The notes under the pieces were generated by a model. It ran no database searches, had not been told where the DNA came from, and worked only from the letters and a program-made list of their open reading frames with translations. This document shows positions 27,564 to 56,804 of a stretch of DNA of 64,000 nt, piece after piece. This stretch comes from Siniperca chuatsi. Taxonomy: Eukaryota > Chordata > Actinopteri > Centrarchiformes > Sinipercidae. Within the stretch, counting starts at the first letter, position 1. Every line of letters begins with the position of its first letter. A program made the translations under genes and the position numbers. The stretch is from positions 34,808,952 to 34,872,951 of the forward strand of contig NC_058044.1 in NCBI RefSeq assembly GCF_020085105.1. The letters run 5' to 3'.

Positions 27564-27580
27564 CTCCAGATGTTTTAAAG

Positions 27581-27589
27581 GTCTGGTCT
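27581..27589 (-). promoter_or_regulatory. Self-primer binding site of the minus-strand gypsy
   Basis: AGACCAGAC on the coding strand, two bases inside the 5' LTR end. It is exactly complementary to GTCTGGTCT at 27865-27857 within the same LTR, which lies about 31 bases after a TATATA motif and thus at the predicted RNA 5' end. This fits Tf1/sushi self-priming rather than tRNA priming. Confidence 0.65.
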
Positions 27590-27591
27590 TC

Positions 27592-28002
27592 TGTCAGCAG
27601 GTAGACACGGGACACAGAGGTTAGTACTGAGACGAGGGAGTTTATTCAAACAGCCAGACAGAGAAAAGCAATGACAGGAGCTAAGCTAGGAAAGTCTATG
27701 GGTCTTATCTTGATGTAGCGCTGGTAGTAGGATCCACAGGAGGAGACGGTTGACAGGAAAGCCGGGAGCTGATGAAACACACAACGGAGAAGTCCAAAGT
27801 CCAAAAGGGGTTGTCAAGAGAAGCTGTGGTCGGGTTGAGTTCTCGTAAGAGGTTTGAGACCAGACAGTGAGTGAACCGGGGAAGTGAGACTATATAGTGT
27901 GGAGTAGATGATTAGTGGCAGGTGTGTAATCAATACTCAGGTGAGTGCAATCTGCTGATTGCAGTGGGTGGAGCTGGTGGTGTCTGTGTTGGCTCTCTGA
28001 CA
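27592..28002 (-). repeat. 5' LTR of the minus-strand gypsy
   Basis: 411 bp. It carries a TATATA box (27896-27891) and the predicted transcription start near 27865. Confidence 0.95.
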
Positions 28003-28119
28003 ACGGCAATACACACAAATGTCGGCAATACACACAAATGTCGGCAATACACACAAGACAGGAATAACAATGACCCGACACTAAACAAAGAAAGAGACCC
28101 GCACTAAATACCCTAGGGG

Positions 28120-31085
28120 AGGTGAGCAGTTTGTTGGTGAAATGCAAAAATGTGGAGCAGAGAAATAAAGGGATGAAACTGCTAACATTGTGTAAAAAAG
28201 AAATAATAGAAAGAAGTATCGTTGGTGAGAGGAGAGGAGCTAGGGGAGTGATAACAGGAATCCCCATCGGAGAAAATTTGGAAGAACTAAGGAAAGTGCT
28301 GAAAGGAGGAAAAATCACAGGAGTTAGACGGCTGCAGGCCTTCAGGAACGGGGAAAAAGTGGAAAGTGAGTCAGTACAGTACAGTTCAATGATGAGGTGC
28401 TTCCTGGAAAAGTGATAGTAGGCTACATGAGCTTTAATGTAAGAGAATATGTTCCTCCTCCAATAAGATGTTATAAATGTCAGCGATATGGTCATACGGC
28501 CAATGTATGTAAAGGAAAACAAAGATGTGGAAGATGTGGAGGAGAATGTTAGATAAGAAAGTTAAATGCTGTAATTGCAGAGGAAACCACACAGCAGCGC
28601 ATGGTGGTTGCACCGTCAGGAAGCCGGCAGTGGAGACATGGCTCAAGCCAAATCTGGAGTTCATTATTAATGGATATACATACGCAAAGATAGATACAAA
28701 GGAAATGGTGGAGGGTGTGCGAAATTTATTAAAGAAGGTATAAAATATAGACAGTTAAGTACAGTACAAGAAATGGAAGAAGTAGTTGTTGAAATATGGT
28801 GCAAGTATAAAAATATTAAACTTCTATAACCCATGCAAAAAAACAGAGAAAGTAAAACTAGAATAAATACTGGAACATTGGAGAGGTAATACCATCTGGT
28901 GTGGAGACTTCAATGCTCACAGCACAGCATGGGGCGAACAAGAAGATTTAAATGGAGAAATCTTAGAGGAGCTAATGGACGAAAAGGAACTGGTGTGTTT
29001 AAATAGATGGATCAGGCACACGGGTAAATTTGGTGAAGGGTACAGAGTCTGCAATAGATCTTACTTTGGTATCACGGTCTTTGGTCTGGGAAAGTAGTTG
29101 GGAAGTAATTAAAGGAAACACTATAGGGAGTGATCACTATCCTATATTCACAAGTATTGGAGTAGAATGGGAAGTAGAACAGGATGAGAGAGAAAGAAGA
29201 TGGAAATTTGAAGAAGCAAATTGGAACAAGTATAGAATAATAACTGAAGGGAAATTAAAGGAGGTAAATATGAACCAGACAATTGATGACCTCAATGCAG
29301 AAATAAATTGTATTATATTAGGAGCAGCAAAAGAGTCAATACCAAAAAGAAACAGTAGGAAAGGGAAAAATATAGTTCCGTGGTGGACACAAGAATGCAC
29401 TTCTGCAATTATAAAAAAAACAAAAAACGAAAGATTAAGGTTTCATATAGAGACAAAAGATCTGATAAAGAATTACCAAAGCGGATTTAGAAAAGGAAGA
29501 AGTACAACTGATCCAGCTCTGTGTTTAGAAAATGAAATTAGGAAAGCTCAAATGAATAAAGAGAGTTTAGTAGCTGTATTCTTTGATGTTGAGAAGGCGT
29601 ATGACATGTTGTGGAAGGAAGGGTTAATGATCAGGTTACATCAAATGGGAATAAGAGGGAGAATGTGTAGATGGGTTAAAAACTTCTTAACAGCGAGGTG
29701 GACATCAGTAAGATTAGGGAAAGAATATAGTTCCAAGTATTTAGTGGAAAATGGAGAGAATCAGTCCAGTTATTTTCTCAGTTATGATAAATGAAATGTT
29801 TAGTAGTATAGATAGGTTGATTGGTGTTGCATTATTTGCAGATGACGGAGTTTTGTGGAAAAAGGGAAGGAATATAGATTATGTAGTCAGGAAAATGCAA
29901 GAGGCAATAAGGAAAGTAGAGGGCTGGGCAATGGAGTGGGGGTTTCGATTTTCAGTGGCAAAGACAAAGGCAGTATGGAGAAAGTTTAGAGAGAGTAGAC
30001 TGTTTGAAGTATCTAGGTATCTGGTTCGACCAGAATCTTACTTGGACTACTCATATTGGAAAAACTGTTGAAAAGTGTAAAAAGGTTCTGAATATTTTAA
30101 GGTGTTTGAGGGGTAGAGAGTGGGGAGCAAGCAGGATTTCTCTGAAAACTGTATGTATTGGGTTAATCAGGGCAGTGCTAGACTATGGCAGCATAGTTTA
30201 CCAATCAGCATCAAAAACATTATTAAAGAAGTTGGATACAATTCAATATCAGGCCTTTAGACTCTGCTGTGGTGCCATAAAAACTACCCCAGTATCAGCC
30301 CTGCAGGTGGAAATGAATGAAATGTCACTGGAAATCAGAAGAACCCAATTAGCACTAACATACTGGGCAAACTTAGAGGGCCACAAGGAAAATCTCCCTA
30401 CGCAGAAGGTGTTAAAACCATGCCAAGAGAAAGAAAAATGGCAGAGCAAGAGCTTTGGCTGGACGATAGGAAACACAGCGAATGGAACAGGGATAGGGGA
30501 GATCATGTTAAGCCCCATGGTACCGTTCTCCGTAGTCCCACCTTGGTTATTAGGAGAGATAGTGGTGGACCTGCACCTTCTGGAAAGGAAGAAAGAGAGA
30601 AATACAGATAGGAACGAAGTCAACAGATATATAGAGGGAAATTACTCTGAGTATATTAAAATATACACTGATCATCAGCATCAATAGTAGATAATAACAG
30701 AGTAGGAGTTGCATTCATAATCCCAGATTTAAATGTAGTGTCAAATAAAAGAGTTAGTAACAACCTTTCAGTATTTGCAGGGGAAATGTTGGCTATTCTT
30801 TTAGTCCTTCACTGGACAGAAAGCATCAAACCAGGCAATTGTTAGGTTCAGAGTCTAGTAGTGTGTTAACCAGTTTCACGAGTTAACAGGCAGAAGACAG
30901 GACAAGATGCTGGAAATAGCTCAAAGTATCTGCAGAATTATTACAGCAGGAGTAACAGTGAGAACCATCTGGATTCCAGCACAGGGAATAGGGGTGGAGG
31001 GAAATGAACTGGCAGACAAATATGCAAAAGATGCAACTAAGAAAGTAGAAGGAAATATGACAATATATTTTTGTCTGACGTCTTA
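28120..31085 (+). mobile_element. I/Nimb-like LINE, broken
   Basis: Plus-strand fragments in order. A gag-like ORF1 contains cysteine knuckles (CYKCQRYGHTANVC, then CGRCGGE and CCNCRGNHTAAHGGC; 28110-28680). An APE-type endonuclease follows (WCGDFNAHSTAWGEQ near 28900; GSDHYPIFTS near 29130). Reverse transcriptase follows (YQSGFRKGRSTTDPA, VFFDVEKAYDMLW; FADDG near 29840) and then an RNase-H-like tail (VGVAFIIPDLN; 30690-31080). Gag knuckles plus APE plus RNase H point to the I superclade, most like the fish Nimb group. Several frameshifts and an apparent internal deletion near 29440 show that it is dead. It ends about 250 bases before CHCHD10. Confidence 0.8.
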
Positions 31086-31205
31086 AAGACACGCCTGCAC
31101 TCCAGTCCAGCAGGTGGCGGTGTGCCCACAGTTGCGATGCTCGGCCCAACAACCCACGACCCACGGCAGAAGCAAAGACCAGGAATTTTGGGATAGCGCG
31201 TTAAG

Positions 31206-31213
31206 TCTCGCGA
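31206..31213 (+). promoter_or_regulatory. TCTCGCGA promoter motif upstream of CHCHD10
   Basis: TCTCGCGA matches 8 of 10 bases of the TCTCGCGAGA element found in TATA-less CpG promoters. It lies 118 bases before the CHCHD10 start codon, in a locally CpG-containing segment without a TATA box. Function inferred from sequence and position only. Confidence 0.4.
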
Positions 31214-31330
31214 CATTTGTGTACATAGCAGGCATAGTAGCAAGCCAACAAGCCTCACAAGGTCAGCGGGACGTGCACGAGCTGCCGCTGCCAGCCATCC
31301 TGTGGTGACCCGAGCAGAGCGCCTCCTGAG

Positions 31331-34300
31331 ATGGCCAGAGGAAGCCGCAGCCGTTCCTCAGCTCCAGCCAGGTAAATACATTTACACTAACTTTCCAACT
31401 GGCTCAGTCTGTGCTGTTGGATTATTGCAGATGGTGTTCTTTAAAGCGCAGGAAGTGGCGCTAATTCAGCCCATATTGAGTCTTCAAAACAGATATGATA
31501 TTGACAGTAAAGCCAAGATAGTTGGACTGTAGTCATGCTAATAACTGCATCATACACCTGACGGCATATAGCCTAGTTATTGTTGTGTCATAAGTCACTG
31601 AGACCACTCAAGTCTAAAGTGAAGTTAGGTCTTGGCAAGGTCACGTTCCCGTCGAGCTGCGCAGGTTTGTCGTGGAGGCTGGAGATTTGAAGCCTCTGTG
31701 AGCTTATTCCCACATATGACACTCAGCTGTATGGAGATTACATCATGCCAAAGCCTCTGACAGTTGAATATGTTTTGGTTTTGCCTTATGACAATAAGTT
31801 AGTTCACTGAACATCTCTTATAATCGTCAAGGAACCACAATGCCGAGTTATTGGGTTGTGATTGGGGTGAAACAGAAATAACTTGCAACTCCCCAACACA
31901 AAATAGTGTAGTTTCACTGTGTACTTCTGGCCTAAATATCTATCTTATAATGTGACAAGTAAATGTCAGTGGGGGTTACTAATGTTAGAGAGCAACACTG
32001 ACTCTATACATTTAATAAGTGAAATATAAAAAACTCTCCCAAAACTTTGAGAACTCAGAATTGGACTTTGTAAGCTTTTGTCTGAAGGCCATCCTACCTG
32101 CTTGGGTTGCACTCTGTCCCTCACCATCCATGCAGCTTGACTTGAGGTTTGCGACAGTTAGGTAACACTGTCTGGATAACTGATTAATTAGTCAATTAAT
32201 CATTTAGTCTCTTGTGACAGTTTGGCATGTGATTTTTCTGTTTGAGGAATTTATCAACTAAATCATCAACATTAGCTGGTTCCCATTTCTCCAATGTGAA
32301 CATCCCATAACAACTATAACTTTTGTTATTATAAAATGGTCCCTTGAGGTTTTACAGTAGCAATTGACATCATTAGATATCCTGTGATGGACATTTTAAA
32401 TTTATTATTGTAAATATAATTCATAGTCTACATTTCTAGAAATGGACTGTTTTTGTTCTGTTTGTAGCCCAGCTCCATCCCATGCTCCGGCTCCCACTCA
32501 TTCACCTCCTGCCGCCCTGGCCCCGGCTCCAGCTCAGTCCCAGGGGCCGGGCCTCATGGCCCAGATGGCTACCACAGCTGCTGGGGTGGCAGTAGGCTCA
32601 GCTGTGGGCCACGTCGTTGGCAACGCCCTCACAGGAGCGTTTAGTGGGGGCAGCAGCAGTTCAGAGCCAGCCAAGCCTTCATACCAGGTAAGAGGTGGAG
32701 TGTGATCAGACAGAGGATTAGGATGGCTGGATAACTGAACCTAGCTGGACTTAAACATGTCTTAACTTGCACTTGTGTGTTTTGAGTCTGACGTCTATTG
32801 GTGTTTTGTTCCCTCGCTTATCTGGAAATGTTCAAAGGCAGAATTTTCTCCACGTGGCCCATGGATTTGAAGTATAGAGCCCTTGCAGATCAGTTTACTA
32901 ACTTTGATCTAGCATTATTATTATTCGAAAATAGAGATCACCCTACCTGCTTGGTTTGTTGCCTGCTGTGATCTTGGTTATCATTAGGACTGCATTAGTC
33001 TGTAAAGACACTGGTGCAGGTTTGGTTTGCTGCACAACTGACTGTATAGAGCCCCACTGACTTACAGTCTGATGATCAAACATTGGCAAAAGCCAGAGCA
33101 TTAATACTAATGCATACCAGCCTGCACGAGGGTAGTTCCTCGTGCAGGCTGCTCCTTTTGTCATATGGTGTAGAATCCTCTAAAGCATTAGAACTCAAAT
33201 TTAAAAACTGTGCACTGCCACCACAGAATGAGGAAGCTGCTTCTGTGCGCTGCTGCTTATAGCACTTGTCATGTATTATTTAGTAAAAATAAAATGATCT
33301 GATCTGAAATGATCTAATTCTTTGGAAAACGTGGCAAGGTTGACAAAATATTACAATGCATGACAGATTTTGGTCAATTTATTTATTCAGTGAGATATGA
33401 AAACAGTGAACCATGCTAGATGGATATGGGAATTTTGTCATCAAAGTTGACATTGAATGTCTAGTCAGATTCATAATCTTGTTTACTTATTATTATCAGT
33501 TGTTATTATCAGGTAGTTCCTGATTTTAAATGATCATATTGCCAATTTTAGACTGTATTTTATTAAGGGAAAGTTCTTGTACATCTGCTTGTGTTTCAAC
33601 AAAATGTAACATTTGAGAACTTTGGTTTATTTTGTTAAATACATTTTTTTAATAGAAATATAAACTGAAAATAGGTTTATATTCCTCATCAGTAGTAAAA
33701 ACTCAGATATTATATTGGCACTGGTATTGAAACTGGGAGTACGAATGGACACTAAGGGTTGAAATGTTTCTTTTTACAGGTACTTGGGACAAAGAAGTGA
33801 TTCACCAAGTAGCTAATATTTGAAGACATTTTGAATATGCTTGTTGATTCAAAATAACACACAGACTGTTGCTTGTAAAATTGTGGCCAACCAGAAGTTG
33901 ACCTCAACCACTAAACCCATTTCTAACTTTCTAGCAGCTCTGCTCTTGTGAAATGTGAGATTATAACTCAAATGTGTGATGTGTTTCTTTTCTTGACCTT
34001 TTAAATTACAAATGACCTTTTATTTGCATCAGACAATGGAATTGTCTCTGTACTTGTCTTGTTAGATCTTAGTGCTGCGTTCGACACCATTGACCATCAC
34101 ATCCTATTACAGAGACTGGAACATGTAATTGGCATTAATGGAGCCGCACTAAGTTGGTTTGAATCCTATCTATCAGATCGATCTCAGTTTGTACATGTTA
34201 ATGGTGAGTCCTCCCTGCACGCCAAAGTTAGTCACGGAGTTCCACAAGGTTCTGTGCTTGGACCGATTCTATTCACCTTATATATGCTTCCTCTAGGCAA

Positions 34301-35935
34301 TATTATTAGGAAACACTCCATAAACTTTCATTACTATGCAGATGATACCTAATTATATCCATCGATCAACCCAGATGAAACTAGTTAACTAAACTTCAAG
34401 CATGCCTTAAAGACATAAAGACCTGGATGACCTGCAACTTTCTGATGTTAAACTCTGACAAAACTGAAGTTATTGTACTTGGTCCCAAACACCTCCGAGA
34501 CAAATGATCTAAAGATATAGTTACTGTAGATGGCATTGCCCTGGTCTCCAGCACCACCGTAAGGAACCTCTGAGTTATCTTTGATCAGGATTTATCCTTT
34601 AACTGCCACATGAAACAAACTTCAAGGACGTAACATTGCAAAAATCAGACACATCCTGTCTCAAAATGATGTTGAAAAATTAGTGCATGCATTTGTTACT
34701 TCTAGGCTGGACTGCTGCAATTCCTTATTATCCGGCTGCCCGAATAAGTCCCTTAAGACTCTCCAGTTGATCCAGAATGCTGCGGCACGTGTACTGACAA
34801 GAACTAGGAAAAGAGATCATATTTCTCCAATATTAGCTTCTCTGCACTGGCTCCCTGTGAAATCCAGAATAGAATTTAAAATCCTTCTCCTCACCTACAA
34901 AGCTCTTAATGGTCAGGCACCATCGTATCTTAAAGATCTCATAATACCATATTATCTGACTAGAACACTGCACTCTCAGAATGCAGGGTTACTTGTGGTT
35001 CCTAGAGTCTCCAAAAGTACAACGGGAGCCAGAGCCTTCAGTTATCAAGCTCCTCTCCTGTGGAATCAGATCCCAGTTTGGGTTCAGGAGGCAGACACCA
35101 TCTTCGCATTTAAGAGTAGGCTTAAGACTTTCCTCTTTGATAAAGCTTCCCATGATGTGCCTCTTTCCTCTCTCCTCCTCTCCCTCTCCATCTGTATGCA
35201 TTTTTATCCCATTACTGCATGTTACTAACTCGACATCTTCTCTCTCCCGTAGTTCTGTGCTTTCTCGTTTCTGTCCTCTCTCCTTCTGTCGCTTTCAGCA
35301 GGTATTTCTGCCTCCGGAGCTGCGGGGTCTGGATCTGTGGTTGTGGGCCACCTGCTGCCCCCATGTTCCTGCTCAACAACTGCTACTACAGTTGTTGTTA
35401 TTCACTCTGTTACTAATACTGACATTATTTTTCCTATATTCCTTTTATTGCTAACTTATTAATATTAACACTACAATTACTATTCTATTTTAAAAAAAAT
35501 AAATCTAAGTGGTCTTTGTATTGTGCCCCCCCCCTCTCACAGCAGCGGCGGATGGCCGCCCATCATTGAGTTTGGTTCTGTCCGAGGTTTCTGCCTCTTA
35601 AAGGAAGTTTTTCCTTGCCGCTGTGGCCAAATGCTTGCTAATGGTGGGATTTGTTGGGTCTCTGTAATTAATATTATAAAGAGTACGGTCTAGACCTGCT
35701 CTATAGGAAAAGTGCAATGAGATAACTTCTGTTATGAATTGGCACTATATAAATAAAATTGAATAACATTCTTGCTTATATAATTCCAGGAGCCCCCCCG
35801 GCCTGCTCCAGGCCAGCCAGGCCCCTGTCACTTTGAGGTCAAACAATTCCTGGACTGTGCCACCAACCAGACTGACCTGAGTTTATGTGAGGGCTTCAAT
35901 GAAGCTCTCAAACAGTGCAAGTACTCCCACGGTGA

Positions 35936-36021
<86 letters not shown>

Positions 36022-41000: not shown

Positions 41001-44000
41001 GCATTCTTCCTCATTTATTCAATTTTTATATATATATATATATAAAAAACTTCGTCCTTCTCCCTCCGCGGGTGGTCTCATCTTTCGAGCTCGGGTCCTC
41101 TACCAGAGGCCTGGGAGCTTGAGGGTTCTGTGCAGTATCTTTGCTGTTCCTAGTACTGCACTTTTCTGGACCGAGATGTCTGGTGTTCTTCCAGGGATCT
41201 GCTGTAGCCACTCCTCCAGTTTGGGGGTCACTGCCCCGAGTGCTCCGATGACCACGGGCACCACTGTCGCCTTCACCTTCCAGGCCTTCTCCAGCTCTTC
41301 TCTGAGCCCTTGGTATTTCTCTAGTTTCTCATGTTCCTTTCTCCTGATGTTGCCATCACTTGGTATTGCCACGTCAACCACAACGGCTTTCCTCTGCTGT
41401 TTGTCCACCACCACAATGTCTGGTTGGTTCGCCATTACCATTCTGTCAGTCTGAATCTGGAAGTCCCACAGGATCTTGTCTCGGTCATTCTCTACCACCT
41501 TTGGAGTTGTTTCCCACTTTGACCTTGGGGTTTCCAGTCCATACTCCGTGCAGATGTTCCTCAAGCGTATAGCTTGATGTCATCCATGTAGAGGAGGTGA
41601 CTGATGGTGGCCCCATTCCTGAGTCGGTATCCATAGCCAGTCTTGTTGATTATTTGGCTGAGGGGGTTCAGACCTATGCAGAACAGCAGTGGGGACAGAG
41701 CATCTCCTTGATCCATGTGTCCACTTATCTTAGCCGTGATGATGCCTGACATGAGCTTCCATGTTGTGGAGAGACAGGTTATTGGCCGATAGTTGGATGG
41801 GACTGTACCCTTTGCAGGATCCTTCAGGATCAGGATTGTACGCCCTTCGGTAAGCCATTCAGGGTGCGTCCCATCTCTTAGCAGCTGGTTCATTTGTGCT
41901 ACTAGGTGCTCGTGGAGTGCAGTGAGCTTCTTTAGCCAGTAGGTGTGGATCCTGTCAGGTCCCGGTGCTGTCCAGTTCTTCATACCTGAGACTCTTTCTT
42001 GGATGTCTGCCACTGTGATGGTGACTGGATTCTGTTCAGGGAGGTTGCTGTGGCTCACTTCTCTCTGGGCCTCCTTGATTTTTGCCTCCAGCCTTCGTTT
42101 CCATGATGGGTACTGTTTCTCATGGCTCCCATGGTTGCTCTTGTAGCCAAGCATCTCGAGGATCACTGCTGCTGAGGCGTATATCAGCTCATTGGTTTCA
42201 GTGATGGTTGTGGTAGGGATCGCCCTCAATGCTGCATTCACATCTTCAGGTCAGTCGCTGCCTCGTTCAGTGTGATTGCACTTGGGGCTTCGTACCCAAT
42301 CTATGGTTGGGGAGCCGCCGCTGGCTCCCCTCTGACCTGTTGTCCTGACTCCCCCTTGCCGTAGCATTTGTGTTGTATCTCATCAATCTCAAGTTGTGAT
42401 AGCAGTTGCCGCTTGTGGATGTTGGAACACTGAGCTACTAGTTGCTTCGCTTACAGCGATTGTGGGTTTCGAAGTAACCATTCATCCCACATCCTTTGCA
42501 TGTAACCCCTCTGACTAGGGTTACTGGAGTAGTAGCATTCCAACAGAACCTTGTTATCGCATCTCGCCCATCACCGTCTTGTTCCAGTAGCCCATTTGTC
42601 ATCTTGATGCTCTGGTTCCCCAACACCTGATGCAGACCTTGTTTGGCCGGGATCTGATTCCACAGGAGAGGAGCTTGATAACTGAAGGCTCTGGCTCCCA
42701 TTCTACTTTTGGAGACTCTAGGAACCACAAGTAACCCTGCATTCTGGGAGCGCAGTGTTCTAGTCGGGTAATACGGTATTATGAGCTCTTTAAGATATGA
42801 TGGTGCCTGACCATTAAGAGGTTTGTAGGTGAGGAGAAGGATTCTATTCTGGATTTTACAGGGAGCCAGTGCAGAGAAGCTAATATTGGAGAAATAGGAT
42901 CTCTTTTCCTAGTTCTCGTCAGTACACGTGCTGCAGCATTCTGGATCAACTGGAGATCCTTATGGGACTTATTCGGGCAGCCTTATAATAAGGAATTGCA
43001 ATAGTCCAACCTAGAAGTAACAAATGCATGCACTAGTTTTTCGGCATCATTTTGAGACAGGATGTGCTTGATTTTTGCAACGTTGCGTAGGTGAAAGAAG
43101 GCAGTCCTTGAAGTTTGTTTCATGTGGGAGTTAAAGGATAAATCCTGATCAAAGATAACTCAGAGGTTCCTTACGGTGGTGCTGGAGGCCCGGGTAATGC
43201 CATCTAGAGTAACTATATCTTTAGATAATGTGTCTCAGAGGTGTTTGGACCAAGTACAATAACTTACAACTTACTTCAGTGTGTGAACACTGAACAACTT
43301 ACTTACAATAACAATAACTTCAGTTTTGTCTGAGTTTAACACAGTGTAGTCCCTCATTCATCCAGGAGTGTTCTGTCATAGAAAAGGTTTCAGTCGTAGT
43401 CATCTAGACGTTTCGGCTCCCATCCGGAAGTCATTCTCAATTGAGAATGTCTTGATTCTGAAAACAGTGTCCAGATGACTACGACTGAAACCTTTTCTAC
43501 GTCTGAGTTTAACATTAGATAATTGCAGGTCATCCATGGCTTGATCAATAGATATAATTGGGTATCATCCACATAACAATGAAAGTTTATGGAGTGTTTC
43601 CTAATAATATTGCCTAGAGGAAGCATGTATAAGGTGAATAGAATCGGTCCAAGCACAGAACCTTGTGGAACTCCGTGAGGACTCACCGTTAACATGTACA
43701 AACTGAGAATGATCTGATAGATAGGATTTAAACCGGCTTAGTGTGGTTCCTTTAATGCCAATTGAATGTTCCAGTCTCTGTAAGAGGATGTGATGGTCAA
43801 TGGTGTCGAACGCAGCACTAAGATCTAACAAGACAAGTCCAGAGACAAGTCCATTGTCTGATGCAATTAAAAAGTAATTTGTAATTTTCACCAGTGCTGT
43901 CTCTTTGCTGTGATGCACTCTAAATCCTGACTGAAAATCCTAAAAATGAACTGTTATTTAGAAAGTCACACAACTGATTGGCGACAGCTTTCTCAAAGAT

Positions 44001-47000
44001 CTTAGAGAGAAAGGGAAGGTTAGATATAGGTCTATAGCTGGCTGAAACCCCTGGATCAAGAGAGGGTTTTTTAAGAAGAGGTTTAATTATAGTTACTTTA
44101 AAGGATTGTGGTACATAGCCAGTTAATAAAGACAGATTGATCATATCCAGTAAAGAGGTGCTAACTAAGGGTAAAACGTCAATAGACTTTTAAAATAATA
44201 TATGTTAGCTATGGTGGACCTGGTAGCCTGTGGGTGTGAGGGGTAGCTGCATCATATAAACAGGATAAAAAAAGCTTTGTGTGGTTCTTTGACCCCTCCT
44301 CATACATTACAATCATGGGATGTACAATTTATCGGTATTGTCCCTTACATATAACAGTAGGGCATAAGCATGCAGCAGTGGCATATATCAGTAAGGATCG
44401 TCATATGCCACTGGCAAGCTGTATGTGTCAGTGGACCATGAGTGACATACTGTTTATAAGTGCCATATGCCAATAGAGGAGCAGCATAACAGTGACAGAC
44501 AGTACCACACATAATCTTCATATGCCACTAAAACAACCACTTTTTGATCTGTTTAATTTCTGTCCCTGAAGCTGGTGTTGGAAGACAGGACAGGCTTGTT
44601 ACACACATGTATGTATGTGATATAGCTCATAACTAATGATTATTTTCATCGTTGATTAATCTGTCGATTATGTTTGGATTAAATGATTAGTTGTATAGTC
44701 TATAAAGTGTCCATCAAAATTTCTCCAACTCCAAGGTGATGTCTTAAAATGTCTTGTTTTGTCCCCAAGAGATTCAGAAGAAAGCCAGCAAATATTCAAC
44801 ATTTGGAAGCTGGAACCAGTTAACCCGTTAATTTTCTGTTGATCGACTAATCGATTGATCCAGTAATTGTCTCAGCTCTAATTTACTATACGTGTATATA
44901 CATGTTTAAACCCACTTCATGTAACACAACACACACCCACATATGCAGCATATATTGGCCTCCTTCTAATGTCCTTTAAGCCATACTCCTATCACCTAAA
45001 AACGTACAAGGTTTGAGTGACTGAAGTAACGTTCATTTAGCAGGTTACTCACGGTTTGATGTCCAGTGCAGTCCAGTTGATGAATGAAAGGCAACTTGTG
45101 TGTGTGTTAAACCAAAATAAACTAACCAAATAAACTATGCTGTGGCAACCCAAAGTAAAGAAAGAAAATAAACTTAAACTTCCACATGAACTGGTAACTT
45201 AATTAAACCTGTTGAAAAACCATTTTGCTCTTGGCGTCCTGAAGCTGCATGCGCTGTGCACAGTTGGTACATTTAACTTGTCTGTTTAATATTTGGCTCC
45301 TACACATGTGACAATCTCATACAATGATGTGGACACACATATTCACAGTTGTATGTACATGAATACATTCTTAGGATATATATTGTTATCATACAAACTT
45401 CATACCTGTATTGTATCTGCTTCACCTCTCACCTGTCTGTGAGAATATCCAGGCTGCAGGTCTATAACAATGGCTAATGGCAGACTAGAGTTACGCACAC
45501 AGTTAGCATAAACATTGGTTCTGTTTTGAATAACTGGATTTGATCTTTTAAGATTCAGTCCCTCACATGGTGAGCATAGAGTTCAGTGTGTTGCTCAAGC
45601 ACACTTGGGCAGGCCTCGACACACAGGAGAACGAACTCTGACCTTGTGGAGGGGAAATGTGCTCACTGTGTCTTTGTTTCATAGATATAGCTTTCAAATG
45701 AAGAATTGTGCACTGTTGCTCACTCCTCCCTCTCTGTCCTGTTGATCCATATTTAACTGCTGTACCCTCACTAATGTTCGTCATGGTGGTTGTTTTCAGA
45801 GGATGAACGTGGTGGTGAAGCCTGGATTGCCAATGCTGATAGCTGGCTCTTGCTCTCCGTGTGTGATGCTGTCAGTGTCTGCAATTGGTGTGACTGACAC
45901 TGCTGACAAGAACAAGGAGCACAGTGCCAAGATCTTTGAGTTTCTGACCAGAGAACTTGGTCTGACTGAAGAAAGGTGAGCTCTTAGTAGTGATGTTAAG
46001 TTTACGAACGATGCGATTCTTTTCAACGGCTCTTTGGTACGTACGAAGGGAATTGAGTCGTACTTGGTGAGAGCCGTTCTTTTTATCGTTGTGCCTAAAT
46101 TCCACTGCCTGCCCTAAACCCACTCCCCTTTACTTGAACGGTGTACCAGTAATGTTACCACTCACAAACACAAACTGTCTGCGACTCACAGCGCCATAGT
46201 GGGTCCACCTGATTACTATCCCAGTGTATGCTGGTATCGCATCAGCTGGGCGGAGTTAAAAAGTTTTCTAATATTAAGTGTTGCATGAATTCAAGATAAG
46301 GGAACTCATATAAGGGAATTTATATAACACATTTCATACAGAGGATAAATTCAAAGAAGTAAATTCACTGACAAAGCAGAGGGACATAGCCTCAAAGCAA
46401 GTTAGTGCTGCTAAACCTAGCCCATACCTGCGAAATGAAATTGTATTGGTGGGATACCCTATCATTATCCTAGTGATTATTTCGCAGATAAACCTAGTAA
46501 CCCCCGCCCCCTAAAGAAAAAAGAACGATGAGACGGCTCTCGGAAAGGAACTGAGCCATAAGATCCAGCTCCCTTCAAAGAGCCTGCCTGCTCACATATC
46601 ATCATCATTGCATAACAATGTGAAGACATACTGGAGTAGTACAGGCACAGTCTGCAGAGTTGTTTTAGAATAACAAGGCCTGCACTTAATCCAGACTTTT
46701 TCCTATGACTACCTTCAATCACCCCCACACACAAATTCAGTAGATTTTTATTTATTTTTTTATTCAAAAATGGGACTGGTGGAATTCTTTTACTGAGCAA
46801 CAGACCCAAATTAGAAAGAATCTGAGGGAATATTCTCTAATACAATCAGTAATTAGAAATTTGAAAGTAACTTAAAGGGATCCTTAAATGTGGTTTTCAC
46901 TTTACCAGGTATTCCCCTTTGCTGTAAAGATTTTACGTTTTTCAAGGACTGTGCTTCTTCACTGATAACCTTGTTACAGTACAAGCAGACAACCTAGCAA

Positions 47001-48436
47001 GGCTACTGAAAACTAGCCTACTGATGCCTTTGACTCTGTCACCCTCACCTGGCAGGTCATAGAGGTCCCTAGAGAGTCTCCCCACTCACTATGCGGTATT
47101 TTAATACAGTTAATTCAAGAAAACATATTTGTACCATCCATTCCTGTCTGATGACTGACTGCAGATCTCATTATACCTTATTACCCGACTAGAACACTGC
47201 GCTCCCAGAATGCAGGATTACTTGTGGTTCCTAGAGTCTCCAAAAGTAGAATGGGAGCCAGAGCCTTCAGTTATCAAGCTCCTCTCCTGTGGAATCAGAT
47301 CCCAGTTTGGGTTCAGGAGGCAGACACCATCTCCACATTTAAGAGTAGGCTAAAGACCTCCTCTTTGACAAAGCTTATAGTTAGGGCTGGCTTGGGTGAG
47401 TCCTGAACCATCCTTTAGTTATGCTGCTATAGGCTTAGACTGCCAGGAGACTTCCCATGATACACCTCTCTCCTTCTCTCTCTCTCATTTGCATTTTTAT
47501 CCCATTACTGCATGTTACTAACTCGACATCTTCTCTCTCCCGTAGTCCTGTGCTTTGTCGTTTCTCTCCTCTCTCCTTCTGTCGCTTTCAGCAGGTATTT
47601 CTGCCTCCAGAGCTGCAGAGTCTGGATCTGTGGTTGTGGGCCACCTGCTGCCCCAGTGTTCCTGCTTGACCACTGCTACCACAGTTGTTGTTATTGGCTC
47701 TGTTACTAATACTGTCATTATTTTTCCTGCTATTTTTTTAGCTGTCATTCATATTATTACTAATGTATTAATATTAACACTACAATTACATTTCTACTAT
47801 TTTAAAAATTCTAGGTAGTATTTGCATGATGCGTCCCTCTTGATGATAATAATATGGTATAAAGTAATAGTGCATGAACTGTCAAGTTAAGTGTAGCTTA
47901 ATAAGATTATAATGAGACAGCATATTGCACAGCAGTAATAGAGGTATGAATAAATATCAATATCAAATAGGGAATTTTAAACTGAAAAGGGTATATTGCA
48001 CTGGAGTATTAACACAGGATATTGCACAATTATCTCAAGTATTGCAGAGATGTAATGATCAATGTCCAATTTAGTGACTTTGGGTCATACAGACTAACCC
48101 TTAGAGGGAAGATTTAAAGAGTTTGATGGCCACAGGCAGGAATGACTTCCTGTGGCGCTTTGTGGTGCTTTTTGGGGGGATGAGTCTAACGCGAACTAAC
48201 TCTTGAAGACTGAGAGCAGCACTCCTTTAGTCCTTGAAACAGCACCCAGCAGCTGAGGGATTTAGAGCTGCACTTTAACCCACCAAACTGTGTTCTTTTC
48301 ATATTTGAATGATTGCACTGGGTAAATGATTGACAGCTCTGTTCGGATTGTTCTGATTCACAGGATTGTTATTCAGTTCCATGCACTGCAGCCTCACCAG
48401 GTTGGGAAGAAGGGAACCGTCATGAGCTTCTTGTGA
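38033..48436 (+). CDS. ddt: D-dopachrome tautomerase (MIF family), complete
   Basis: Three exons: 38033-38140, 45800-45975 and 48364-48436, with GT/AG borders and compatible phases (0, then 2), giving 118 aa, exactly the usual DDT length. It starts [20 protein letters not shown]; after removal of Met, Pro1 would be the catalytic base of the tautomerase fold. GTVMSFL at the C-terminus matches the family ending. The family forms homotrimers, tautomerises D-dopachrome and acts as a MIF-like cytokine. Intron 1 (7.7 kb) is filled with L1-like, SINE, R2-like and L2 insertions on the minus strand. Intron 2 holds an inverted-repeat element and an L2 fragment. MIF itself is not seen in this window. 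Confidence 0.93.
38452..38565 (+). mobile_element. L2-like LINE 3' tail scrap
   Basis: TGTAAATATTATAAAGAGTT, GGTCTAGACCTGCTCTATAG and CGCTATATAAATATAATTGA, the last part of the recurring L2 tail, in DDT intron 1. Confidence 0.8.
38585..41025 (-). mobile_element. L1-like LINE fragment, minus strand
   Basis: Minus-strand pieces read like an L1/Tx1-type ORF2: [20 protein letters not shown] and [20 protein letters not shown] near 40730-40980; further RT pieces to about 40270; [20 protein letters not shown] near 39200 towards the C-terminus. Many stops. It is interrupted by the SINE at 39962-40262. Confidence 0.7.
39962..40262 (+). mobile_element. tRNA-derived SINE inserted in the L1-like LINE
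   Basis: tRNA-like head with box-A-like GATAGAGCGGGTCGTCC and box-B-like AGTTCGATCCCGG, and then GTCCTTGGGCAAGACACTGA. A GTGTGTGAATG-rich middle follows, and a 3' part AAGCGCTTTGAGTGGTCGGA ending CAGTCCATTTACCATTT. The same blocks in reverse occur at 16590-16830. The flanking L1 sequence continues on both sides. Confidence 0.8.
41045..42650 (-). mobile_element. R2-superclade LINE with restriction-like endonuclease, internally deleted
   Basis: Minus strand. A region upstream of the RT lies at 42240-42650. RT finger/palm pieces follow ([40 protein letters not shown]), then [20 protein letters not shown] and [12 protein letters not shown]. After a second jump come the C-terminal domain and the restriction-like endonuclease motif [22 protein letters not shown] motif A is missing: the protein passes straight from SGHMD to QGDALSP. 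A further segment after YMDDIKLYA is also missing. The RLE-type endonuclease places it with R2/R4/NeSL-type LINEs; I cannot name the clade. Confidence 0.75.
42650..44195 (-). mobile_element. L2-like LINE fragment, minus strand
   Basis: Reverse complement of the 34000-35100 type copy. Minus-strand frames contain [60 protein letters not shown] and [17 protein letters not shown]. It abuts the R2-like element directly at about 42650, and is interrupted by the fold-back insertion at 43342-43500 and a small duplication near 43266-43316. Confidence 0.85.
43342..43500. mobile_element. 159-bp fold-back insertion with 14-bp target duplication
   Basis: The flanking L2 sequence GTCTGAGTTTAACA occurs at 43328-43341 and again at 43501-43514. 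Between them are perfect 26-bp inverted arms (43380-43405 and 43473-43498, starting AGAAAAGGTTTCAG) and an 18-bp perfect palindrome CATTCTCAATTGAGAATG at 43432-43449. No ORF. A long exact duplication suggests insertion through a staggered cut, as in retroposition; the class is unknown. Confidence 0.75.
44625..44882. mobile_element. hAT-like MITE, diverged copy of the 17038 family
   Basis: AACTAATGATTATTTTCATC, GATTAATCTGTCGATTATGT, AAATGTCTTGTTTTGTCCCC near the middle and GATCGACTAATCGATTGATC near the right end, finishing TCTCAGCTCTAA. Ends are degraded. Lies in DDT intron 1. Confidence 0.6.
44883..45799. other. End of DDT intron 1
   Basis: No repeat or gene recognised; AT-rich, with short open frames that lack motifs. 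Confidence 0.4.
46000..46600. mobile_element. Inverted-repeat element in DDT intron 2, probably a non-autonomous DNA transposon
   Basis: The left arm near 46010-46085 (AACGGCTCTTTGGTA, GAGAGCCGTTCTTTTTATCG) matches the reverse complement of the right arm near 46518-46595 (CGAGAGCCGTCTCATCGTTC, GGCTCTTTGAAGGGAGC). The arms are imperfect, about 80 bases each, with about 430 bases between them. Exact ends and the target duplication could not be fixed. An hAT-like origin is only a guess. Confidence 0.5.
47160..47840 (+). mobile_element. L2-like LINE fragment in DDT intron 2
   Basis: Encodes [20 protein letters not shown] and [15 protein letters not shown], the C-terminal L2 block also seen at 34990-35110, followed by its 3' flank (TTCAGCAGGTATTTCTGCCT). 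It stops before the final tail. Confidence 0.85.
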
Positions 48437-48719: not shown

Positions 48720-48725
48720 AATAAA
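48720..48725 (+). promoter_or_regulatory. Candidate DDT polyadenylation signal
   Basis: AATAAA 284 bases after the DDT stop codon; a second AATAAA lies at 49042. Confidence 0.5.
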
Positions 48726-49562: not shown

Positions 49563-51103
49563 GGGACAGAGAGACAGTACAGCATACAGACTGCAGGGGT
49601 CGCCATGTCTCATAAACCCTGGAACATGATAGCGAGGGTTTAATGATTGCTATTCTGCCTGTTGCTGCCACCATGCTCCATGACTGTACACGTATCACTT
49701 TATCCACGTTTGCCTTCCGTTTACCATGCCACTTTTTCTGGCGTGGTGTCGGCCTGTTTCTTGCCTCAGAGGGCCAGTTCCGGAGAAATACACTGGCATT
49801 TAAATACCCTGTTCGGAGATTATTCCATGTTTTTTATGTCATAAAAATGTCATACAATAATCAATCAGTGCAGTTAGATTAAATTCATATGTTGTTTTTG
49901 TTTGAAATCGTTTGTTACAGTAGATTATGTAACATAGTATTAAACAGCAGGAACCTTCTGAGTTATATAAACTGTTACTGTTAGTCTGTCACCTTCCACC
50001 CAGTGCTCTAATCTACAGTATCATGTCTCATGACATGATTACTGGTTAGACTTTTCACTGCTGGAGACAGATCAGAGAGTACAGAGATGAAACAAGAGGA
50101 TTCACTCTATTACTTTCACTGAATTCCTGTCGGCCAGACAAATTCCCAACTCTATTCTCTCAGTTGAACGTTCATATTACTAGCGCCCTCTAGCAGCAGT
50201 AAGAGAAAACAAGAGAAAATGACTTGGGCCAGAAGGCTGAAGTCACATGAAACTGATATGTAATCCCCATGTGTTTGTAGTTTTGACACATGCTGTTCAT
50301 CAAAATGCTATGGTTTGTGCAACTCTTGTTTTATGACACATCCTTGCTAACTCAGTGGCTAACCAACAGCTATTGGTAAAGCAGACCATGGACATTAAAA
50401 TATGTTACAAACTCACTCAGTGCTCTGTGATGACGTTTAGCTTTAAGCAGTGAAAATAACACCCTACTAGTGAAATATTATGGTTAATAAATAATTACAC
50501 AACACTATAATATGAAAAAAAAATTTCTGTTCTGTTCAAAAGTGTCATTTGTTCATTGTCATGCATTTCTTTTTCCGCGGGGGTTTGGCGCTCAGATGGG
50601 AGCCGGCTCGTAGAGCCAACTCGTTCGCGACTGACACATCAAACAACGAACAAACCTGCATACTGGACTCGACCTGACTGGACTCGGCTGCTGCTGGTAC
50701 CAGGAGCACGTTCAATCTGAAAATGGCACTTGGCGGCACAGGAGATCATTCCTGCCGGTGGCCATCAAACCGTTTAACTCATCCCCCTCTGTCGCAGTGT
50801 GGACATCATTAGACTGGGAGGCTCCATCCATCCATCTTATTGCTTCACTTCCACTTGATACCCACACATCATGTTAGTGTGCCTTGCACTCTGTGGAGTA
50901 ATAGGTGTAATACTTGAAATGCTTGACTCTAGAGGTCCAGAAGTGGGTATACCGAGGCAACATAGCACTCAAACCTTGGTCGACCTTGACTCGATCCTCT
51001 GACTTTTCATCTAGCGCCATCATCAGGTTAAATTTTTAATTTGTCCAATACTTTGGTTTAGGACCAAATACCTGCAGAACTAATGACAGTGTGGCTCATT
51101 TAA

Positions 51104-51486
51104 AAGTCTAGTGTGTAAGATTTAGTGGCATCTAGTGGTGAAATTGCAGTTTGCAACCATTTGAATATCGCTCGCCTCACCCTCCCCTTCCAAGTGTGTA
51201 GGAGAAACTACGGTGGCCACGAAACTCGCAAAAAGACGTGAAAGGCCATATCTAGAGCCAGTGATTGGTTTGTCCTTTCTGGGCTACTGTAGAAACATGG
51301 TGGTGCAACATGGTCACCTCTGTGCAAGGGAACCCGCTCCCTCTGAAGATAAAAATGGCTGATTCTAAGGTAATGAAAACACAATGATTATTATTTTGAG
51401 TTGATTATACACTAATGAAAACATACTTATGAATATTATATTCCATTTCTGCCAATAGCTTCTCCTAAATGTTACACACTGGACCT
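51104..51486. mobile_element. MITE with TTAA target duplication (piggyBac-like)
   Basis: Flanked by TTAA at 51100-51103 and 51487-51490. The left end AAGTCTAGTGTGTAAGATTT matches the reverse complement of the right end (AGGTCCAGTGTGTAACATTT) at 16 of 20 positions. 383 bp, no transposase. The TTAA duplication is typical of piggyBac-type insertion. Confidence 0.8.
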
Positions 51487-51875
51487 TTAAATCTTGTGCC
51501 AGTTTAACCACCGTCCTAAAAGCCAACAACTGCCATTATTAGGCTTATGCTATTAAAACTTTATTGTGGTAAATTGTTGTTTTATCGGGATTAAAATGGT
51601 GAGGTGCTCAAATTGACTTTCCAGTACAGTAGTGATTATCATTTATCATTTATGGAGAAATCATCCGTTATCAGAAAGGCAGATGAGAAAGCTTGTATGA
51701 GGAAACACTTTGTCTAGCTGAGGTTCAAGCTAGTAGCACTTGTCCCCTACAGTCTGTCGCTGGAATAGGAGGGACGTGAACTATCTTAGTCAAATAAATG
51801 CTCTTTGGTGCTAACTTGCAGAACTGCCATCAGACCGTGACCGAGGGAAGACCCCGGCCTCTTACAGAAGCACTA

Positions 51876-54210
51876 ATGGCGTTAGAGCTGTATTTGGACC
51901 TTTTCTCTCAGCCATGTCGCTCAGTTTATATCTTCGCCAAGAAGAACAACATCCCCTTCGAATTCAAAAAACTTTCTCTGCTGGACGGTGAGTTCAAGTT
52001 CACACACAGACGAAGGAAAACTATCCTTTTCTGAATCAGAAATTAGACGGAACCGTGACACTGTTTGGAGTTCAGAACAGAGCTCGATAAACACGTAGAA
52101 TTATGACCTGCAAGTCATAATTCTAATTCAGAGGATAGAGAAACTGTCATGTCACAATCTGCTGGATTATAAAGTAGAGACAAAGTCAGAAAGCAGTTTT
52201 CATTGTCACAACAGTAACTACTGATCAGCTCAGGTGTTTTCTATTCACGTCTCTTCATGTTTTATCAGTAATATCACAGAAATGCATTATTATGTTACAA
52301 ACAATTTCGCCCATGTAGTAAGTCTTGTGTTTCTGAATCTATAACAGCAGGGATGGGTATCATTTGAAAGTTTCTGTTACCCTTGCTAAAAGGGCCTTTC
52401 AGTAAGACACTGCTATTTTGATATCTAATTTACTTTTTACTTAACAAAACTCTTCTTTTCATTTAACAAAGCAGCCATTCATGAGGACAGGGTATGAAAT
52501 TAACAAAATTCGCATTTAAAATAGGAAGTAGGCCTATCTGATCCAAATATAAGTAGGTTAAGTAACCAGTTTGAGCCGCTGTCTCTTTACTCCTCTAAAG
52601 GAAATTTTTGGTTTTATGAAACCTTCAGCTTGTCCCACAGATGTTGTCCCCCATCGCCTTTTTAAAGAGGTTTGTGAAATTATTGGACCAAATGTCCAAA
52701 TAACTTTAAACAGCAGTCTCACCTCAGGTGTTGTACCAGCATGATTCAATCACAATCAAAAAATCCAACCTGGACACCTCAGTCCTCTCCAACTTTAGAC
52801 CGATTTCTGAACTCCACTTTCTTTCAAAAATCTTAGAGAAAGCTGTACTCATGCATTGCAATCTTTTTTAGACCCACATGGCACTCTTGAGATGTTCCAG
52901 TCTTTTTTAAAGCACTTCACAGCCCTGAATCTGCACTTTTAAAAGTTTTTAACAATATTTTATTAACCACTGAGTCTGGGGATTCCACCATTCTCATGCT
53001 TTTAGATCTCCTCATCCAACTTTCCAACTGAGGCTGTATTCCAGGTTGTGCAATGAGATAACTTCTGTTATGAATTGGCGCTATATAAATACATTTAATT
53101 GAATTGAAATTCCAAGGTCAAGTCCTTTTCATAATTTAGTGATTTTGAAAAGGTTATCCATGCTTTATTTAGACCCGACTTGACTGCTGTAATGCCCTCT
53201 ATGTTGGTATTAGCCAGGCCTCTTTCACGCTTGCAGTTGGTCCAGAATGCTGCAGCTCGTCTTTTAACAGGCAAGCGAGAGCACATTTTCCCCGTACTGG
53301 CTCCCTGTACGTTTTAGGACTGATTTTAAGATTTTATTGTTTACCTATAAATCATTAAATGGGCTTGCTCCATCCTATCTCGCTGACCTTCTACAACGTT
53401 ATGTCCCAACAAGGTCACTCAGGTCAGCTGAACATTTACTCTTCGTCGTCCCAAGAACAAGGCTGAAGCACAGCGGTAATCGTGCCCCCAAACTCTGGAA
53501 TAAGTTGCCTCTGTATCTCAGGCTAGCCCCTACAATGCCTGCTTTGAAACCCCGTCTTAAAACCCATTTGTTCTGGCTTTTAACTCACTATGAGAGTAGC
53601 CTTTCTTTATTACTGTCCTTTTGAACTCGTCTTTTAAATTGTGCTTTGTGTTTTTACCGTGTCAGTAACAAACATGTACTGAGGTTGGAGTCCCGTCCCT
53701 AAGTGTAAGTAAATAAGACTAGGAATCTGAAGTAGTCAGTGCTCAAAAAATTGAGGTTTCAGCTCTATCTGTCGGTAGCTACATATGTAGACCAGCAAGT
53801 AGTGTCTTTGTGAATAGCTATAGATAGTTCCAGACTAAAATCGTATTACTGCTGCTGATTTGACCCAGGTGTGTGTGTTGGTTTCAGGTGAACAGTATGC
53901 TGAAGAGTTTGGGAAGATCAGCTTGATAAGAAAAGTCCCTGCTCTGCGAGATGGGGACTTCTGCCTGGCTGAAAGGTGATTATTTAAATGTTCCTCGACA
54001 TAAATCATTGCACAGTAATAAACCTATACAAACCCATGTCATTATGTTTGCCTCTGCAGCATTGCCATCCTGCTGTATCTGGCAGAGAAGTTTAAGACTC
54101 CAGACTTCTGGTACCCTGCTGACCTCCAGCAGCGTGCTCGCATCAATGAGTATCTGTCATGGCAGCACACGGCCATCCGTTGGCATGGGTCCAAGATGTT
54201 CTGGCTCCGG
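51876..54210 (+). CDS. gstt1: Glutathione S-transferase theta (GSTT1-like), exons 1-3, 3' part outside window
   Basis: Exons 51876-51987, 53888-53975 and 54060-54210 (112, 88 and 151 nt) with GT/AG borders and phases 1, 2 and 0 encode the first 117 residues. The N-terminal thioredoxin-like domain reads [20 protein letters not shown]; Ser11 sits in the SQPCR motif, which is the theta-class catalytic serine. [14 protein letters not shown] followed by IAILLYL forms the glutathione-binding region. The start of the alpha-helical domain ([20 protein letters not shown]) is present. Theta GSTs are cytosolic and conjugate glutathione to electrophiles. I could not find exons 4-5 before 64000; intron 3 already exceeds 9.7 kb because of a gypsy insertion. 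GSTT1 versus another theta paralogue is not resolved by the part seen. Confidence 0.88.
52560..53640 (+). mobile_element. Decayed L2-type LINE of a second family in GSTT intron 1
   Basis: Plus-strand pieces: [20 protein letters not shown], then [10 protein letters not shown]-like and [12 protein letters not shown] pieces (52620-52900). After a gap comes the C-terminal block [20 protein letters not shown] and [18 protein letters not shown] (53337-53600). It differs from the common L2 copies in the window. Stops and frameshifts throughout. Confidence 0.7.
53045..53108 (+). mobile_element. L2-like LINE tail scrap
   Basis: CAATGAGATAACTTCTGTTA and GGCGCTATATAAATACATTT ending in TTAATTGAATTGAA, within or next to the second-family LINE. 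Confidence 0.7.
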
Positions 54211-55305
54211 GTACGTTCACTGACACCTGTCGTGGTCTCCTGCTTGTTAAACTGTAGGCTTTTACCTCCAGCTTTTCTCCAGACTGAGACACTGAGGAGT
54301 GAAGTCAGCTGGAAGGAAAACACCAGGTTCTAAGTTAGAGCCACTGATGGAGGTTTCCTGCTGCTTTCCACTGTTCTGCTGGTGTGTGCACTTAGATGTC
54401 ACCCTTCACTGCCACTGATCCCCATACTGTGAGAGAGATAACCCATTACTAGAAACACAAAGCTTTAAACTGGCTTAAACGGGACGTTTCTGTTGTATCC
54501 TATTTCATTTTCTTTTCATACTGTAACAGTGTGACAGTAATTGTGCTCTGCTTTCTGTAAATGACCTAGAAGTAAAGGGCGGAGATTATTCCAGCAGAAA
54601 CATACCAACAGAAGAGTTTTACATGGAACATAGAGAAACCTCCCTGTATACATGACTCTAACTTTATCCAGGTTTCTGATGGTCTGTTCTGTGCCTCCAG
54701 CTGCTCTCTGTTTCTGCACAAACAGAGTGAGATCAGCAGTAACAGTAAGACAAAAGCATCAATGTAATACATTCTTTGCATGACCAGTCTTAGACTTTGA
54801 TTTCAGCAGGTAGATCATTTTACATCATTTAAAACAACCTTCTGGCCTGTGGCCGGTTTGTATATGTCTATTATTTTGAGCAGTTGCCCTAAAGAAGTCT
54901 CTGCAAAATATCTCACGAGGGGAAAAAAAGCAAAGATTAGAGAAAAGTCTAGAAAATGAGTTTGTGTGGTAGAATGATCATTTTCTTCTGTCCTGTCCAA
55001 GGAACCCCTCACCTTTCTCTTGTGACCTCTGACTTCAAGTTATATTTGCTGGAGCAGCACACATCTCTCAAGCATAAAATTCACTTGTGAATGTATATAA
55101 ATGCCTATATTTATGAGCAATTGACTTCAAATGAATATTTAATGATGTATTTCATATGTTACTGACTTCATCTTAACACATAGGCCTATGCAGCACAAGC
55201 AGAGAGAAAGAGTGAGGGAGGGAGAACAGTTTTCCTGTTGTTACATATCTTTTCTCTTGACAAATGCCAGAATAAATATACTGTATAAAATATAAATACT
55301 ATAAC

Positions 55306-55347
<42 letters not shown>

Positions 55348-56248
55348 ATTAATGATGAACTTAATGTTTAAAATGTGTGATCACAGACAGTTTTCAGCCC
55401 TGACCCTCAGGCAGGCATACATCGTCGTTTTGCCAAAGCTCTGTTTCAGGTGATTAAAAACACTGGTCTAGTGAGGACAGAGGGCCAAGAAAAATGTGCT
55501 TTTATGCATTTTACCGGCTGAATGTGGACGTACTCTATTAGTCAGGAGATACAGATAGACAGTGTGGGGTAGTACAATCGTTAAACCCAGTAAAGGACAA
55601 GCACAAAGCACCTGTTACCATCTAAATAAGCTACATACGTGTATTTAATAGGCTTGTACAACACAAACAAAAGTCACTCCACTTCTAGACCACTTCTCGT
55701 GGACATTGGAACCACGACAGAGCCGTAAATCAACCAGAACACGTCACAGCCGGATCCTGTAGACATAAAGTGTTAGGCTCTGATCAGACACCTGGATAAG
55801 GTGGTAATACAGTATGATAAAGTTTCCCAGTTTGCTCCGACTAGCATATTCAGGTTTCTCAAAACCACAATAAGGTTTTGTTCAGACCAGCATTAGCTCT
55901 TTGTGAAAAAATCCAGCCACCTCATTAATTTCAGTGAACCTGTACCAACATGCAGGGCTCCAGCAAAAAAGAAAAAGTCAGAGTCATCCAGCAAAAAAGT
56001 TGAACCAGGCTCAACTGCACCACAAAGCAATCTGACACCATCTGGCATTACACTGTGTTGGCCAATCAAATACCGGCAAGTGCACATGAAGACAACATAG
56101 AAGGAAGTTGTATCTTTACACACAAAATCCCCACATATAGACCCCTTTTCACAAACATTTTCATGGTCCTAAGAATGAATCCACATCGCCATTTTGGCAT
56201 CTCAAAAAGGCAACAAATTGCAACCTTTGCTTGCCATACTTGTCATAT
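54211..56248. other. GSTT intron 3, left part
   Basis: No exon 4 of GSTT and no further gene recognised. An (AAT)n run of about 13 units lies at 55306-55345. Confidence 0.5.
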
Positions 56249-56253
56249 ATCAG

Positions 56254-56793
56254 TGTTACAGACACGCCAGGCTCCACCTCATCACAGCCACACCGCACTC
56301 CCTCACCGGAATACTAATTCCCAACACCTGTCACCCATCACACACCTGCACTTAATCAGCCACTCTACTCCCTATAAAACCCAGCTCCTCACCTCAGTCA
56401 GTGTCCGGTCTCGTTTATACTAAGGACAGATCAGAGCAGTCTTCCTGTATATGCTTCACGGACTCACCACTAAGATTATTGGATCTTTCTCCCTGAGAAC
56501 TCTGAACCCCAGCTTCTGTCGATCTACAGTCTCCAGATTGTGCCGCTCTATCTCCCGGCTCCAGTCCATCTCGTATCTCCTGAGTGTGCCGCTCCGAATC
56601 CTGGCTCCCGTCTGTCTCCTGTGTCCGGAGCTCCTGTGTGTTCCCCGTCTTCGGTGTGTGGCGCCCCAGTGCCCACACACCTCTGCCATCAGTAAGAGAA
56701 AGGACAGTATCTATTCTTCTCTATAATACTTCTGTGTTTGCAATAAACTCTCAGTATCCTTACCACTCGCCTCCGGTTGTTCTGTTCGTAACA
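56254..56793 (+). repeat. 5' LTR of the young gypsy
   Basis: Runs from TGTTACAG to CGTAACA. TATAAAA at 56373-56379 and AATAAA at 56742-56747 mark promoter and poly(A) signal; the predicted RNA start is about 56403. Confidence 0.97.
56373..56379 (+). promoter_or_regulatory. LTR TATA box
   Basis: TATAAAA exactly 30 bases before the GTCCGGTCT motif that pairs with the primer site, which supports both the start-site and self-priming predictions. Confidence 0.75.
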
Positions 56794-56795
56794 GA

Positions 56796-56804
56796 AGACC
56801 GGAC
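56796..56804 (+). promoter_or_regulatory. Self-primer binding site of the young gypsy
   Basis: AGACCGGAC, two bases inside the 5' LTR end, exactly complementary to GTCCGGTCT at 56403-56411 in the LTR. The position matches that in the other gypsy (27581-27589). Confidence 0.7.

Follow-up and report, generated by a model that had tools for sequence, protein, structure and literature searches.

In the long terminal repeat (LTR) retrotransposon Tf1, the RNA pairs through its first 11 bases and is cleaved by RNase H between bases 11 and 12, according to the cited part of PMC7175516. Self-primers have been described in Tf1/sushi elements of yeast and vertebrates (PMC6317226), and the passages drawn on from PMC6317226, PMC4600332 and PMC10085805 present self-priming as a common feature of this group, described or implicated in vertebrate elements. 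Several chromoviruses prime with a 5' hairpin (PMC3601003), and a 'pretzel' RNA structure with a central duplex of primer and primer-binding site is reported for several elements (PMC10085805). Here we consider two elements in a 64,000-nucleotide stretch of the genome of Siniperca chuatsi (contig NC_058044.1, positions 34,808,952 to 34,872,951), referred to as the window: one on the minus strand (the minus element) and a young one on the plus strand (the young element). From their sequences, we put at about 0.9 the probability that both are Tf1/sushi-like Ty3/gypsy retrotransposons with self-primed reverse transcription. The features on which the argument turns are the following.

56254..56793, plus strand: 5' LTR of the young element (TGTTAC...GTAACA), 539/540 identical to 61056-61595
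56373..56376, plus strand: TATA motif, beginning 30 bases upstream of GTCCGGTCT
56403..56411, plus strand: GTCCGGTCT, presumed RNA 5' end and self-primer, exact reverse complement of 56796-56804
56772..56803, plus strand: hairpin joining the U5 end to the primer-binding site, for which it competes with the presumed self-primer, from folding against shuffled sequences
56794..56795, plus strand: GA spacer from LTR end to primer-binding site, the same as in the C21 family described below
56796..56804, plus strand: AGACCGGAC, primer-binding site, reverse complement of GTCCGGTCT
61056..61595, plus strand: 3' LTR of the young element, from comparison of the element's two ends
27592..28002, minus strand: 5' LTR of the minus element (TGTCAG...CTGACA), from comparison of the element's two ends
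27893..27896, minus strand: TATA motif, beginning 31 bases upstream of GTCTGGTCT
27857..27865, minus strand: GTCTGGTCT, presumed RNA 5' end and self-primer, exact reverse complement of 27589-27581
27590..27591, minus strand: GA spacer between LTR and primer-binding site
27581..27589, minus strand: AGACCAGAC, primer-binding site, reverse complement of GTCTGGTCT
22991..23402, minus strand: 3' LTR of the minus element, from comparison of the element's two ends

In both elements a 9-base stretch of the LTR, here called the R site, is the exact reverse complement of the site just past the LTR, which confirms the nine perfect pairs reported in an initial annotation of this DNA. The LTR ends were fixed independently of the pairing, by comparing each element's two ends, and in both elements the primer-binding site begins two bases beyond the terminal CA of the LTR (CA/GA/AGACC). 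The annotation was right in placing the R site 30-31 bases after a TATA motif, but wrong in placing the pairing two bases inside the LTR end, since the primer-binding site starts two bases after it. The two LTRs give no blastn match to each other at 1e-3, although the RNase H-integrase regions are 68% identical in amino acids over 424 residues, and against this background the R and leader motifs common to both elements are conspicuous. The elements being related, their pairings are not independent. When the leader was kept and LTRs were drawn at random from the dinucleotide frequencies of the real one, with sites allowed to start 0-4 bases past the LTR, a perfect complement of at least 9 bases arose in 230/20000 runs for the young element and 260/20000 for the minus element, a chance rate slightly above 1% per element before any position relative to TATA is required. 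Because of this rate and of the relatedness, a single compensatory base in these two elements is, taken alone, only suggestive.

The strongest single piece of evidence for a self-priming pairing is a third family, C21, because four of the nine pairs formed by its sites are unlike those of the first two families. The element at C21:24231376, whose pol is 54% identical to that of the young element, has an LTR of about 650 bases with its end fixed by its own 3' LTR and with GTTTC on both outer sides. The LTR's terminal ACA is followed by GA and then by ACGATCTGGC, the exact complement, over 10 pairs, of GCCAGATCGT lying 231 bases into the LTR; a scan of the leader's first 40 bases for complements located this pairing site, at an offset equal to that of the other two families. 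Three sequence classes can be distinguished (GG, AG and C21), each 9/9 paired with itself. Between C21 and the GG class, pairs 2, 4, 6 and 9 of the nine compared have changed on both sides and all are still paired, and with sites swapped between C21 and the other classes, 5 Watson-Crick pairs remain, along with no more than 2 G·U. Resampled C21 LTRs reached 10 pairs in 45/20000 runs at offsets 0-4 and in 4/5000 at offset 2. Two further copies of the family were read, L190 with perfect pairing and L191 with one mispair.

How general is the pairing among relatives in the same genome? The genome that is the source of the window (718.8 Mb, 65 contigs) was searched with the pol of the young element (69 matches listed) and for the Tf2-1-like SH3 family (150 listed), each search scoring its best candidates only. 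We read 20 whole neighbourhoods, 20 five-prime stretches selected for the most part because of their lower identity (with 11 extension pieces) and 16 stretches from the SH3 list. These 56 listed places, together with L123 and both elements of the window, make up the sample; L122 corresponds to the window itself. Both sites were readable at 34 places, among them L158, which the motif filter had overlooked, and L191, which was read last. Pairing is perfect at 27/34, one place (L152) has a single T·G and 6 are mispaired; most places were chosen by motif filters resembling the expected sites, so that 27/34 is not an unbiased share. Left out of the 34 were places with the 5' end absent or broken (L130, L134, L142, L147), with a primer-binding site but no R site (L137), with an R site but no primer-binding site (L151), with a primer-binding site whose R site was not found (L164 and its extensions), without a usable pair in the stretch read (L153, L154, L157, L159, L165, L168 and 12 of the 16 SH3-list stretches), or without a primer-binding-site motif (L125-L129).

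The one position that differs between the window's two elements was followed with a pattern in which an R site carrying C or T and a primer-binding site carrying G or A are separated by 250-280 bases; this was the only gap range scanned, and the spacing of the young element falls outside it. Of the 32 elements matching the pattern, 5 of them read from loci obtained earlier, 11 carry C:G, 20 T:A and 1 T·G, whereas C·A does not occur among them, and the reversed-pattern control in the same genome gave 0 matches. The Fisher value for this pair is 9e-8, counting copies rather than events. Both T·G cases (L152 and C14:28125925) carry the G-type primer-binding site and pair by wobble, and L148, which lies outside the 32-element set, combines C·A at the varying pair with a second mispair. 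Together with the 10 pairs of different sequence in the C21 family, the lack of C·A among the 32 supports the self-primed reverse transcription that the initial annotation proposed.

As in Tf1, transcription would probably start about 30 bases past the TATA motif, giving an RNA that opens with GTC(C/U)GGUCU. The RNA 5' end would fold back on the primer-binding site two bases past the 5' LTR. On the Tf1 model, cleavage beyond the paired stretch by RNase H of the element would leave a short 5' RNA piece to prime minus-strand DNA, and the GA spacer would correspond to the two bases trimmed by integrase. In a 385-nt model of the minus-element RNA start, folded with standard energies, the helix has pair probabilities of 0.71-1.0.

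Several results weigh against this scheme. In the 502-nt model of the young-element RNA start the helix has a probability of only about 0.002, because the U5 end folds onto the primer-binding site. Imposing the helix carries an energy penalty of 0 to 9.5 kcal/mol for the young element and of 0 to 2.1 for the minus element, according to the 3' end given to the model, and across the relatives the penalty ranges from 0 to as much as 15.5 kcal/mol. The six mispaired places carry one mispair (L150, C5, C2, L158, L191) or two (L148). The 32 pattern-matched elements form two clades, and the independent changes at the varying pair are therefore few, perhaps one; the covariation check across related elements of the genome that the initial annotation had suggested came out favourably, yet in two clades only. 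We examined one of the two flanking duplexes of the 'pretzel' structure, GGACAGA/TCTGTCC, which fits many GG-class elements; an element's own pair was no better than swapped ones (2854/5000 permutations, 29 distinct rows). Elsewhere, the cited part of the report on SM-Tcn1 gives no evidence of tRNA priming or self-priming (PMC2864245), and that on Skipper describes LTRs with no complementary region (PMC5006619). Finally, the C21 leader has a TGG inside its paired stretch, 8 bases past the LTR end. The energetic cost of the helix, at least, could be overcome by proteins or by co-transcriptional folding.

The hairpin of the young element (56772-56803) has 14 pairs and one bulge, and shuffled sequences were as stable in 3/2000 and 1/500 cases. 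In the young-element subfamily the primer-binding site might pair either with the RNA 5' end, for priming, or with the U5 end in a closed hairpin state, but not with both, and self-priming might be switched between them. We consider this doubtful; were it true, the hairpin would hold off reverse transcription until opened and would constitute a built-in switch on self-priming. As a general feature of these elements, the hairpin of U5 with the primer-binding site was dropped: the junction fold was reached by at most 19/500 shuffles in 14/25 rows and by 32 to 440 in the other 11, which include all three minus-family rows.

Could the complementarity have some other origin than priming? The R-site motif might owe its conservation to a role in the core promoter, and the leader motif to something else, with the complementarity being ancestral and the compensatory base due to chance. 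Such an origin would fit the GG class, in which R site and primer-binding site are both near-invariant, and the conservation on the R side, which mostly extends one unpaired base beyond the pairing. It would leave unexplained why the C21 family, with another R site and another leader, is again exactly complementary, and why C·A occurs in 0/32 pattern-matched elements, even if L148 outside the set has it, and we regard it as very unlikely. An equally improbable account is that the RNA 5' end pairs with the leader for RNA circularisation, packaging or translation control; pairing is by itself no proof of priming, and the primer-binding site of the young element pairs with U5 too, but the site lies two bases past the LTR end, where a primer would be expected, and the window elements have no ordinary tRNA site there.

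Most LTR elements prime with transfer RNAs (tRNAs), and priming by a tRNA 3' end needs a TGG near the LTR end. The first TGG of the window elements starts 65 (young) and 23 (minus) bases past the LTR, so that there is no ordinary tRNA site in either, and ARAGORN found no tRNA genes within the 64-kb window. Besides this general use of tRNAs, the TGG of the C21 leader speaks for a tRNA or tRNA fragment as primer with an incidental complement in the LTR; at 8 bases from the LTR end, it is not taken as a tRNA site. Fixed tRNAs, moreover, would not drive a matching change in the LTR, as the initial annotation remarked in saying that a tRNA primer would not predict the covariation, and we give a tRNA primer hardly any credence. 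Priming from the element's own RNA 5' end is the reading that we carry forward.

Both elements have the Ty3/gypsy order gag-protease-reverse transcriptase-RNase H-integrase by Pfam, spread over several frames, and both have an SH3_Tf2-1 domain (1.8e-23 and 4e-22). Chromo was called at 4.1e-12 in the minus element, and no chromodomain was called by Pfam in the young-element frame examined. The top solved relative of the young-element pol is Ty3 Gag-Pol (1.6e-100). The remaining features of the two elements are as follows.

56249..56253, right copy 61596-61600, plus strand: target-site duplication ATCAG of 5 bp flanking the LTRs of the young element
56792..58039, plus strand: reading frame with gag and protease domains (Pfam)
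58719..60923, plus strand: reading frame with the end of reverse transcriptase, RNase H, integrase and the Tf2-1-like SH3 domain (Pfam)
61042..61052, plus strand: polypurine tract upstream of the young element's 3' LTR, read in the sequence
25107..27593, minus strand: reading frame with gag, protease and reverse transcriptase domains (Pfam)
23833..25278, minus strand: reading frame with RNase H and integrase domains (Pfam)
23330..24007, minus strand: reading frame with the Tf2-1-like SH3 domain and chromodomain (Pfam)

Within the young element (56792-60923) the gag-pol similarity to the minus element spans three reading frames, changing near 57979 and 58720. The LTR pair of the minus element is identical at 403/413 positions, in an alignment that takes in a base or two outside the LTR, and its outer flanks read GCCGT and GCTGT. 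Its 3' LTR (23402-22991) has GTTTGGTCT where the 5' LTR has GTCTGGTCT, one base apart, and GTTTGGTCT would still pair with the minus-element primer-binding site via a G·U wobble. A G+C-rich repeat at 21819-22176, about 0.8 kb downstream of this 3' LTR and in the orientation of the element, consists of four in-register copies, the last three at 60-base spacing. Elsewhere in the window, 34003-35765, 42649-44187, 47163-47728 and 61997-62451 hold overlapping repeat families in both orientations, possibly one long interspersed nuclear element (LINE) as judged by eye. L193, considered as an LTR end with TGG, was dropped, since by eye it reads like a LINE.

Beyond this genome, no relatives were confirmed in the viral-contig and genome-contig collections and none were found in the phage collection; a pattern scan of the viral contigs returned at least 120 stretches, which we took as chance matches. 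Three plasmid records matched at 28-32% identity and were not used, as they are probably host retrotransposon DNA. One of them (L121, NZ_CP087956.1) is a 5.3-kb 'plasmid' of an insect-derived Wolbachia with an annotated retropepsin, reverse transcriptase and RNase H-like protein; it matches the young pol at 32% and was probably assembled as a circle from host DNA. The other two are Bacillus licheniformis plasmid records, matching the young pol at 28-30%.

With these comparisons, an observation on two elements becomes a within-genome comparative test of self-priming, from which predictions follow for the RNA 5' end and the cut site. Programs that find primer sites by seeking only tRNA matches would miss such elements. 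The known mechanism itself is unchanged, and we do not present this type of covariation as a first report; nor is the directly seen complementarity, which the initial annotation stressed, supported as new, self-priming being already in print for Tf1/sushi elements, including those of vertebrates. These elements add one more well-supported example of an established mechanism, and the third family, whose primer and primer-binding site are both different, strengthens the case.

The closest parallel is Tf1 of Schizosaccharomyces pombe. As there, the RNA 5' end, here presumed, would be complementary to the primer-binding site, and the Ty3/gypsy domains are accompanied by a Tf2-1-like SH3 domain in both elements and by a chromodomain in the minus element. 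These elements show the Tf1/sushi trait of a primer-binding site that can pair with their own LTR close to the presumed RNA start, and the putative assignment to that group rests on domains and pairing rather than on a tree or a comparison with sushi or Tf1 proteins. Unlike in Tf1, the pairing covers 9-10 bases and a GA spacer follows the LTR, both known here from the DNA. Tosmo, Tcry1 and Tj1 of fission yeasts, as described in the cited source, share the central duplex of primer and primer-binding site with the elements studied here, in which the flanking duplexes are not clearly supported. In the vertebrate Tf1/sushi group, sushi-ichi and its relatives (Butler et al. 2001), self-priming has already been described or implicated in the cited accounts. 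Beyond those vertebrate reports, compensatory changes have been worked out here for three sequence classes within one genome.

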